The position numbers and the translations under genes are program-made. From assembly GCF_029961185.1 (NCBI RefSeq), contig NZ_JASBQQ010000001.1, forward strand, positions 372,001-436,000: a stretch of 64,000 bases of DNA. Reading direction: 5' to 3'. Of this stretch, positions 2,412-17,175 are shown piece by piece. Under the pieces are notes generated by a model. The model was given only the letters and a program-made list of their open reading frames with translations, made no database searches and was not told the origin of the DNA. Numbering within the stretch: position 1 is the first letter of the stretch; the number at the start of each line of letters is the position of its first letter. Source of the stretch: Albidovulum aestuarii. Lineage in GTDB: Bacteria; Pseudomonadota; Alphaproteobacteria; Rhodobacterales; Rhodobacteraceae.

Positions 2412-2998
2412 TCGAGGCGGATCGGCGTCCGGTCTCCGGCCGCAAAACGACGCAGGACTGCCGGGTAAAGCCGATGCTCTTGCTTCAAGACCCGGGCAGC
2501 CAGCGTTTCGACCGTGTCGTCCGGCATGACCGGCACCCGGGCCTGCCCGAGGATGGGCCCGTCATCCAGAACCGGCGTCACCTCATGCACGGTGCAACCC
2601 GCCTCGGCATCGCCCGTATCGAGCGCGCGCTGATGGGTATGAAGGCCGGGATATTTCGGCAAGAGAGAGGGGTGGATGTTCAGCATCCGCCCCTCGAATT
2701 TCTGGACGAAAGCCGGCGTCAGAACCCGCATGAATCCGGCAAGGCAGAGGATGTCGGGTTTGGCGGCAAGGATCGGTTTCAGAAGTTCCGCCTCGAAAGC
2801 CGCCCGGTCCGATCCGAAAGGCCGGTGATCGACTGCGGCGGTCGGGATGCCCATCGCAGCGGCCTTCTGCAGACCACCCGCATCGGGGTCATTCGAAGCA
2901 ACCAGCACCGGCCGCGCCGGATGATCACCCACCATGCTTTCGACCAGCGCCACCATGTTGGAGCCGCCGCCCGAAATCAGGATCCCGACACGTTTCAA
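2408..2998 (-). CDS. purN: Phosphoribosylglycinamide formyltransferase
   Basis: PurN transfers the formyl group of 10-formyl-tetrahydrofolate to GAR, the third step of purine synthesis. The 196-residue protein starts [14 protein letters not shown] and carries [18 protein letters not shown], with the catalytic Asn-His-Asp set visible as NIHPS and the Asp in VLDDGPI. Its start overlaps the purM stop by four bases, so the two consecutive pathway enzymes are translationally coupled in one leftward operon. Length and motifs are normal. Confidence 0.97.
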
Positions 2999-11733: not shown

Positions 11734-11767
11734 AAAAAAACCGCCGCACTCCAAACGGAGGCGGCGG
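11734..11767 (-). terminator. Intrinsic terminator, leftward
   Basis: On the minus strand a GC-rich stem (CCGCCGC with GCGGCGG, extended by GGAG/CTCC across one bulged base) is followed by seven T residues. It lies 127 bases after the stop of the 40-residue peptide and would end that leftward transcript. Confidence 0.8.
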
Positions 11768-11893
11768 CAGGAAGCGATTTCCGGTGTCCGGACGCGGGGC
11801 TCGGGGGGAGCCGGGGACTGGGGACAGGCGTATTCCGGGCGGAGAACCGCGAGGCAGGTAACGAGTAGAGCGTTTCGGGGAAACGCTGCAGGG

Positions 11894-12016
11894 TCAGATC
11901 AGGCTCGGCAAGTGCAGCCCGACGATCAGCATCATCACGAGGGAAAGGAGACCGGCGGCATCCTGGGCAATCGTCCCGCGTGCGCGGATCAGAACGGATT
12001 TCAGATCGGTTTTCAT
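11894..12016 (-). CDS. 40-residue single-span membrane peptide behind SOS-type boxes
   Basis: The frame starts at ATG 12016 with AAGGTGG five bases upstream and ends at TGA 11894. The peptide has a basic N terminus (MKTDLKSVLIRARG), the element IAQDAAG, and a hydrophobic helix LLSLVMMLIVGLHLPSLI to the end. I recall similar short peptides in Rhodobacteraceae without known function. Two GAAC-N7-GAAC direct repeats lie in the 100 bases upstream, and a strong terminator lies downstream, so it looks like a free-standing DNA-damage-inducible transcription unit. It could act on the membrane or on division, by analogy with Caulobacter SidA or E. coli TisB; that is inference. Confidence 0.75.
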   Translation of the reverse strand: MKTDLKSVLIRARGTIAQDAAGLLSLVMMLIVGLHLPSLI

Positions 12017-12078
12017 CTTGCCACCTTTCTCTTCACCTCTGTTGCTGATTTGTTCTCATATCTTGAATGCGATGTAAA

Positions 12079-12114
12079 GAACTTTTTAAGAACATTTGAG
12101 AACGGGGCAGGAAC
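12079..12114. promoter_or_regulatory. Candidate SOS (LexA) boxes
   Basis: Two direct repeats of the alphaproteobacterial LexA type occur, GAAC-TTTTTAA-GAAC at 12079-12093 and GAAC-GGGGCAG-GAAC at 12100-12114. Read on the minus strand they are GTTC-N7-GTTC, the form described for Rhodobacter. They lie 63-98 bases upstream of the 40-residue peptide start, in the gap after recG. Confidence 0.7.
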
Positions 12115-12119
12115 GGAAC

Positions 12120-16429
<4,310 letters not shown>

Positions 16430-16458: not shown

Positions 16459-17175
16459 TCAGGCGCCGACCGCCAGTTTGCGGCTGGCCTCCTTCGGATT
16501 GGGTTCGCGCAACACATAGCCCCGCCCCCAGACCGTTTCGATATAGTTCTCGCCCCCGGTAGCCTCGGCGAGCTTCTTCCTGAGCTTACAGATGAAGACG
16601 TCGATGATCTTCAGTTCCGGTTCATCCATGCCGCCATAGAGGTGGTTGAGGAACATCTCCTTCGTCAGCGTCGTACCCTTGCGGAGCGAAAGAAGCTCCA
16701 GCATCTGGTATTCCTTCCCCGTCAGATGTACGGGCGCCCCCTCGGCCTCCACCGTCTTGTCATCAAGGTTCACGTTGATCTTGCCTGTCTTGATGATCGA
16801 CTGGGCATGCCCCTTGGATCGGCGGATGATCGCATGGATGCGCGCCACCAGTTCTTCGCGATGGAAGGGTTTGGTCAGATAATCGTCTGCACCAAAGCCG
16901 AAACTGCGGATCTTGTTTTCCGTATCATCCGCGCCGGTCAGAATCAGAATCGGCGTGTCAATCTTCGACATGCGCAGCTGGCGCAGCACTTCGTGCCCGT
17001 TCATATCGGGAAGGTTGAGGTCAAGAAGGATCAGGTCATAGTCATAGAGCTTCGCCAGATCGATGCCTTCTTCGCCAAGATCGGTGCAATAGACGTTCAG
17101 ATTGGCGTGGGTCAGCATCAACTCTATACTGCGGGACGTCGTGGGGTCGTCCTCGACCAACAGAATTCTCATCAA
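16459..17175 (-). CDS. ctrA: Cell-cycle/motility response regulator CtrA
   Basis: CtrA is an OmpR-class response regulator that binds TTAA-N7-TTAA sites and in Rhodobacteraceae controls flagella, gene transfer agents and other functions. The 238-residue protein has the receiver domain ([16 protein letters not shown], phospho-acceptor Asp in [10 protein letters not shown]) and a winged helix with the diagnostic [27 protein letters not shown]-type segment and GRGYVLREP. It lies 91 bases downstream of the sciP-type gene on the same strand. The intervening DNA has TTAA motifs that may allow autoregulation. Confidence 0.96.

Follow-up and report, generated by a model that had tools for sequence, protein, structure and literature searches.

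The observations described below are consistent with a family-wide unit of the Rhodobacteraceae, very likely controlled by LexA, that as judged from comparison of genomes comprises a gene for a 40-residue membrane peptide together with, in most of the loci examined, a new structured RNA in its 3′ untranslated region (3′ UTR). The initial annotation of this window (i.e., the whole 64,000-nucleotide stretch of DNA analyzed here, part of contig C12 of a 4.24-Mb genome) had proposed a smaller entity, a DNA damage-inducible peptide unit, which is well supported, as far as sequence can tell, by a lexA-like operator, a conserved frame, and a terminator kept in relatives. On balance, we think it somewhat probable that the locus yields a LexA-repressed, damage-inducible transcript with two conserved products, namely, a membrane peptide that holds the divisome and a 3′-UTR RNA that acts by base pairing. 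In this model, LexA would repress the transcript and DNA damage would induce it; the 40-residue peptide would reside in the inner membrane and bind a membrane protein through the conserved face of its single helix, the likeliest candidates being the late divisome proteins FtsW, FtsI, and FtsN, and would hold division during DNA repair. The 3′ UTR, in most of the loci examined a folded RNA with exposed UGCCU/UGUCCC repeats, would probably base-pair, with the ftsZ ribosome site as a candidate target. By analogy, our best guess is an SOS-induced division checkpoint composed of a SidA-like peptide plus a DinR-like RNA, and we speculate that the unit may be the family's missing brake on division after DNA damage.

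On the minus strand of the window, the order of elements is recG (12120 to 14207), the GTTC array, the 40-codon frame, a hairpin, a C-rich stretch, and a further hairpin with a T-run. recG is the upstream neighbor of the peptide gene in every locus examined, that is, in 54 of 54 rows of our comparison (53 distinct loci), and lies no more than 212 nt from the peptide start, with one locus at 623 nt. Two genes beyond recG, also on the minus strand (16459 to 17175), is what we take to be a CtrA-like response regulator. The peptide frame (11894 to 12016) corresponds to MKTDLKSVLIRARGTIAQDAAGLLSLVMMLIVGLHLPSLI and is preceded by a ribosome-binding site, AAAGGTGG, at 12021 to 12028. Directly 3′ of the stop codon is a perfect 8-bp hairpin, AGCGTTTC-CCC-GAAACGCT (11869 to 11887), recognized from sequence and fold; no T-run follows it. 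Farther along, a reduced copy of the 3′-UTR RNA (11768 to 11857) appears to retain the closing helix, one or two hairpins, and CTGCCT and CTGTCCCC motifs. The unit closes with an intrinsic terminator (11734 to 11767), read from sequence as a GC hairpin and seven T residues; a terminator scan also calls this site, with 1.0 such sites expected by chance. Based on this layout, we infer that the peptide and the RNA are carried on one shared transcript.

Is the 40-codon frame a real gene? Comparison with relatives indicates that it is. The initial annotation had reported a 40-residue frame with a ribosome site, and both are real, the frame being conserved in the family. That proposal depended on the frame being kept in related genomes, and kept it is: a 41-member profile finds the peptide in 259 of the 295 family genomes sampled (230 of 260 good assemblies), with one match per genome except for two matches in each of five genomes listed, and a query with the single peptide matches 193 of the same 295. 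Codon positions 1, 2, and 3 differ by 0.43, 0.27, and 0.60, respectively, across relatives, and the conserved residues are encoded by several different codons. Our locus comparison comprised 54 rows (53 distinct loci and one duplicate row), i.e., the 30 best single-peptide matches, 20 rows hand-picked from the lists of peptide and promoter-pattern matches, which include eight genomes without detected lexA, and 4 rows from a class-wide search, among them the duplicate. Peptide length is 39 to 42 residues in 52 of the 53 loci, the exception being an extended frame in genome G157, and residue conservation (n = 53) is 53 for D19, 52 for G22 and for L34, 51 for P37, 50 for L26, and 49 for T15. The class-wide sample of 385 genomes returned only five members of the family and one weak partial match (E 7.5e-4, over 25 positions within a 495-residue frame). 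Profiles of Pfam, NCBIfam, and PHROGs gave no match to the window peptide; across the 41 members, there was one marginal match to a single member in Pfam (E 0.005) and another in NCBIfam (E 0.004). A phage or mobile origin was rejected, given that the window peptide has no PHROGs match and that synteny behind recG is constant. Neither the peptide nor the RNA was found named in the open-licence literature searched.

Upstream of the peptide, the initial annotation had noted GAAC-N7-GAAC boxes at 12079 to 12093 and 12100 to 12114 and a further GAAC at 12116 to 12119, all of which are present. Boxes from one genome alone are weak evidence: the window holds 4 GTTC-N7-GTTC sites versus 1.97 expected (15 of 100 shuffles reach 4), and the genome holds 137 versus 72 for a reversed control pattern. 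It is the comparison across genomes that carries the case, and the idea that the boxes arose by chance was rejected on its strength, with the N7 pair found in 52 of 53 loci and the promoter pattern kept. This comparison shows a conserved operator-promoter in the family, GTTC-N6-GTTC-N7-GTTC-TTTAC, usually followed by N16 and then GAGAACAA; upstream of the peptide in the 53 loci, the triple is found in 48 and a fourth half-site in 17. A LexA-type operator thus lies directly upstream of the peptide. Aligned with its relatives, the conserved array in the window (12079 to 12103, minus strand) is GTTC at 12100 to 12103, N6, GTTC at 12090 to 12093, N7, and GTTC at 12079 to 12082. Two extra half-sites are located at 12111 to 12114 and 12116 to 12119 (span 12111 to 12119), in an N7 spacing that is particular to the window. 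The second of the two boxes originally described, 12100 to 12114, is therefore not conserved as a box, in that 17 of the 53 loci have a fourth half-site, yet the window alone shows the N7-N6-N7 layout. Immediately 3′ of the last GTTC is TTTACA (12073 to 12078), which resembles a −35 element and is kept in most relatives, and beyond it lies the conserved TGAGAACAA (12050 to 12058), an inverted GTTCTCA half-site that perhaps overlaps the −10 element. A sigma-70 consensus scan called no promoter at the TTTACA region of the window.

The operator-promoter can also be used as a query in its own right. A strict form of the pattern is found in 153 of the 295 family genomes, never twice per genome, and its reversed control does not occur among the matches listed for these 295 genomes. 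A promoter-only scan of named species genomes yielded at least 119 stretches, of which 80 loci were listed; these partly overlap the sampled family genomes. The taxa among the 80 are genera of the Rhodobacterales or are labelled only Alphaproteobacteria or Pseudomonadota, and Ruegeria, Sulfitobacter, Roseovarius, Rhodobacter, and Paracoccus are among the matches listed. In these 80 listed loci (of at least 119), the promoter is accompanied by the peptide in 79, by the recG end in 79 (the one locus without it has only 64 bases upstream in its sequence), and by a third half-site at N6 in 68. In Paracoccus amoyensis (L222), the promoter (2459 to 2503, minus strand) is followed instead by a hydrophobic frame of 32 codons, MMSREFISDLLSVSALAVTTTVVLWLPAILQA, which does not match the peptide profile and would be either a replacement or a case of extreme divergence.

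We consider LexA control of the micropeptide unit very likely because both the sequence and the triple layout of its array match those of the operator at lexA itself. Among 30 lexA loci (the best-scoring 30 of 282 genomes with lexA), GAAC-N7-GAAC is upstream in all 30, and 22 have a third half-site, spaced at N6 or N7; these lexA arrays usually stand behind TTGACA. With a weight matrix made from the 30 lexA sites, 51 of the 53 micropeptide upstream regions score above the 99th percentile of 1015 background windows, and 17 of the 53 exceed the background maximum; the window scores 18.3 bits, and the lowest score, −7.1, is that of G157. The region upstream of lexA in the genome under study (G000:C17:219309-219345) has four GTTC half-sites with an 11-base period, forming three overlapping boxes. 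Phased triple half-sites in this genome are confined to lexA, the present locus, and one GC-rich site. A UvrA-like gene and several further genes also lie behind boxes in this genome, named by eye from 20 stretches hand-chosen from the 100 places listed out of 137. AT-rich LexA-type boxes were also seen before aldo-keto reductase-like, PEP-mutase/isocitrate lyase-like, and radical-SAM-like genes (L033, L039, and L043; by eye).

Between the stop codon and the terminator, relatives have a C-rich element in common, and in most of the loci examined the comparison argues that this 3′ UTR is a covarying structured RNA, uncatalogued and new. The initial annotation contained no such RNA. A covariance model made from eight loci matched 37 of 52 sources, once each and always on the peptide strand; 36 of the 37 matches begin no more than 70 nt behind the peptide stop, and the 37th, in G157, lies inside the extended frame. 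When 16 sources were searched again, a refined model added L130, L119, L121, L123, and L008 (E 5e-4 to 0.04). Under strict filters, the refined model matched 75 of 198 family genomes, never twice, with 123 of the 198 giving no match, and on the 80 listed promoter-picked loci it matched 52 at E ≤ 0.05, with no match in 28. By eye, the coordinates place all 52 matches on the promoter's strand and downstream of the promoter, at most a few hundred bases away.

Comparison also shows that the structure of this RNA is conserved. The fold consists of three hairpins enclosed by a long closing helix, 90.2% of the alignment cells pair, and 30 of 33 pairs have double changes versus 19.9 in shuffles, with a covariation of 0.472 versus 0.05 to 0.10 for slid partners. 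Because model-made alignments lean towards the model, a recount was made on the 29 nonseed rows, in which 89.4% of cells are paired versus 30 to 43% for slid partners and 187 cells have double changes versus 26 to 41. For the RNAs of the named promoter-picked set, covariation is 0.533 versus 0.05 to 0.12. The folding z score has a median of −2.7 over 41 RNAs. In these 41 RNAs, UGCCU/UGUCCC motifs beyond the leader number 2.46 per RNA, compared with 0.26 for mononucleotide shuffles, and they are 79% unpaired versus 36% elsewhere; the CTGCC leader was used to cut the RNAs, and including it the motif count is 3.37 versus 0.29. No Rfam family maps to the 3′ UTR, whether in the window or in 13 relatives, and a known sRNA was rejected, given that Rfam matches fall only outside the 3′ UTR (Ysr141 near locus ends and one snoRNA model in L013).

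In the window and in its congener L002, the RNA is shortened and its folding is ordinary. The window RNA has a folding z score of −1.7 and a covariance model score of 12.2 bits, which is not significant (E 2.2); the congener RNA has a z score of −0.6 and an E value of 0.068, and the strict model search gave no match in either genome of this genus. What argues for an RNA in the window is its position together with the leader, the closing helix, and the motifs. In relatives, a conserved small open reading frame is combined with a conserved RNA structure, the two marks of a dual-function RNA; in the window the RNA is reduced. Can the RNA act on its own message? Pairing of own 5′ and 3′ UTRs showed no excess over mismatched ones across 41 loci (z 0.06), and self-control of translation by such pairing was rejected on this count; the test is a weak one because the conserved motifs pair everywhere.

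Could the RNA instead be the main product, with the peptide secondary? We hold this to be possible but rather unlikely. The transcript would then yield a LexA-controlled 3′-UTR sRNA of the DinI/DinR or VcdRP type, either processed from the mRNA or sharing its 3′ end, whose C-rich loops would repress mRNAs, perhaps that of ftsZ. The strong covariation and the repeated, unpaired motifs point this way, as does pairing at ftsZ: in target tests in 13 genomes (the genome of the window and 12 in which the RNA is strong), pairing of the RNA motifs was somewhat better at ftsZ starts than in shuffles, with a z score of −0.92 (se 0.25, n = 13) versus −0.04 at lexA starts (n = 30, paired with RNAs taken from other genomes) and −0.18 in coding windows (n = 26). 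Likewise, CAGGCGG stands at the ftsZ ribosome site in 13 of 13 and 8 of 8 genomes with the cassette versus 7 of 14 without it (16 fetched, 14 resolved), a contrast (21 of 21 versus 7 of 14) that is limited because phylogeny confounds the groups that have and lack the cassette; one ftsZ start (G023) looks misassigned. Against the RNA as main product, ftsZ ranks only 48th of 654 gene starts by pairing energy (800 kb of one relative), and its pairing with CUGCCUG retains a G-U wobble. The peptide, too, is strongly conserved; it was found in 259 of 295 genomes, a wider distribution than the 75 of 198 obtained for the RNA under strict filters, and in the genus of the window the RNA shrinks while the peptide persists. 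In the same 800 kb, CAGGCGG is carried by 4 of the 654 gene starts.

Thus far, ftsZ as a target of the RNA is only a lead. Across the family, the ftsZ ribosome site ACAGGCGGA (L282-L319) is unusually conserved and departs from AGGAGG. By analogy with EcpR1 as described in PMC4414408, dnaA was considered as a target in the same 13 genomes and rejected, with a mean z score of −0.66 (se 0.39), which lies between ftsZ and the controls, and no consistent site. If ftsZ were a target, the two products of the proposed checkpoint could form two arms under one operator, with the peptide jamming the assembled divisome and CUGCCUG/CCUGUCCC loops shutting ftsZ translation at ACAGGCGGA. We regard this extension as quite unlikely; were it true, division would be stopped at the protein level and the mRNA level together.

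What, then, would the peptide do? The single span proposed initially is supported at the level of prediction by a 19-residue hydropathy above 1.6 in 53 of 53 sequences and by an AlphaFold single-sequence prediction of one helix (residues 5 to 39, pLDDT 89.8). Mean net charge is +1.4 over the first 14 residues and about zero over the last eight, and given this distribution we predict that the peptide probably lies in the inner membrane with its N terminus inside. The moment of conservation is greatest at 100 degrees per residue, with permutation p values of 0.0006 to 0.0026 for the three ranges tried, and this helical period suggests that one face of the helix is held by a partner. Positions 20 to 34 contain K, R, D, or E in 0 of 53 sequences, and the mean helix moment of residues 20 to 36 is 0.06. 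A specific membrane partner seems likelier than a TisB-like pore because of the conserved face, which includes D19 in 53 of 53, and the uncharged membrane core.

The conserved face implies a partner without naming which, so the peptide might bind a membrane protein other than the divisome (e.g., a protease, a sensor kinase, or a transporter) and tune repair, dormancy, or the release of gene transfer agents. Such a role finds some encouragement in the overlap of LexA- and CtrA-regulated traits described for Dinoroseobacter in PMC6473078. However, the known SOS membrane peptides SidA (PMC4211646), YneA, and SosA (PMC13396833 and PMC6851548), as these sources describe them, target division, and we consider a partner elsewhere unlikely. 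The late divisome as the partner in our proposed mechanism is drawn from precedent only, and the link to SidA made in the initial annotation is still one of analogy.

The initial annotation had also pointed to TisB. Is it possible for the peptide to be a toxin of the TisB/DinQ type, which would depolarize the inner membrane under SOS conditions and have a structured or antisense RNA as its brake? Its size, single span, probable SOS control, and accompanying untranslated RNA would fit, and TisB is described as LexA controlled (PMC8145889) and DinQ as SOS regulated (PMC3567139). TisB, however, relies on charged and polar residues of its helix according to PMC11449926, whereas the membrane core here is uncharged and the predicted helix is not an amphipathic one with charges along the span, which makes a TisB-type pore less likely; moreover, the 5′ and 3′ UTRs of one locus pair no better than mismatched ones. 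The charge argument is not decisive because the same source describes charge rules that vary among type I toxins. Weighing these points, we find a toxin improbable and return to the divisome-holding peptide as the preferred reading.

Among 13 genomes without detected lexA, the peptide is found in eight, and the box is kept in seven of those eight, whose assemblies are fragmented, incomplete, or both. Genome G069, one of those keeping the box, has a completeness rating of 100% but is split into about 300 contigs. The assembly of G157 (L148/L120), which has no detected lexA and is 80% complete, holds the only locus of the 53 without a GTTC-N7-GTTC pair, and its peptide frame runs beyond the usual stop. 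Conservation spans more bases than LexA binding would require, and a second regulator is therefore possible. A different regulator might even bind the GTTC array in place of LexA, and the gene would then stand outside the SOS response. This alternative would agree with the wider conservation and with the seven boxes kept where lexA was not detected, but we think it very improbable in view of the array's resemblance to the operator of lexA, in letters as well as in triple layout, and of the state of the eight assemblies, among which is G157 with its deleted array.

Rhodobacteraceae are major marine bacteria and laboratory models. In the open-licence literature searched, no SOS division inhibitor was found reported for them. 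The peptide, found in 259 of 295 sampled genomes and with an operator that is one of only two AT-rich triple-GTTC runs in the genome, offers a ready candidate. The RNA would be a further addition, a 3′-UTR RNA outside the enterobacteria that is conserved in structure and probably under LexA control.

How does the unit compare with known systems? TisB/IstR-1 and DinQ of Escherichia coli are, like the proposed unit, SOS-regulated, tiny, single-span membrane peptides; antisense RNAs are a feature of both, and the TisB helix is amphipathic with charges along its length as described in PMC11449926, unlike the helix of the micropeptide. VcdRP, as PMC8672173 presents it, likewise places a tiny open reading frame (a 29-amino-acid protein) and a C-rich base-pairing RNA on one transcript, but it is CRP controlled, has a metabolic role and citrate synthase as its partner, and belongs to an unrelated host group. 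For the RNA, the closest precedent is DinI/DinR of Klebsiella, in which, according to PMC10907235, the sRNA DinR derives from the 3′ portion of the LexA-controlled DinI mRNA and blocks the ftsZ ribosome site; shared with our unit are a small-protein gene, an SOS-type operator, a regulatory-looking 3′ UTR that ends in a terminator, and ftsZ as a possible target. In contrast, DinI modulates RecA filaments, and the pairing stretch of DinR is described as Klebsiella specific, whereas the fold of the micropeptide RNA is kept across the family. For the peptide itself, the nearest parallel by description is SidA of Caulobacter, a 29-amino-acid, SOS-induced division inhibitor of the inner membrane that acts on FtsW (PMC4211646), in an organism whose LexA box consensus is GTTC-N7-GTTC (PMC4211646 and PMC12700426). 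Both peptides are alphaproteobacterial and tiny, and both are placed, ours by prediction, in the inner membrane; unlike SidA, the micropeptide unit has a triple operator and what appears to be a structured 3′-UTR RNA.
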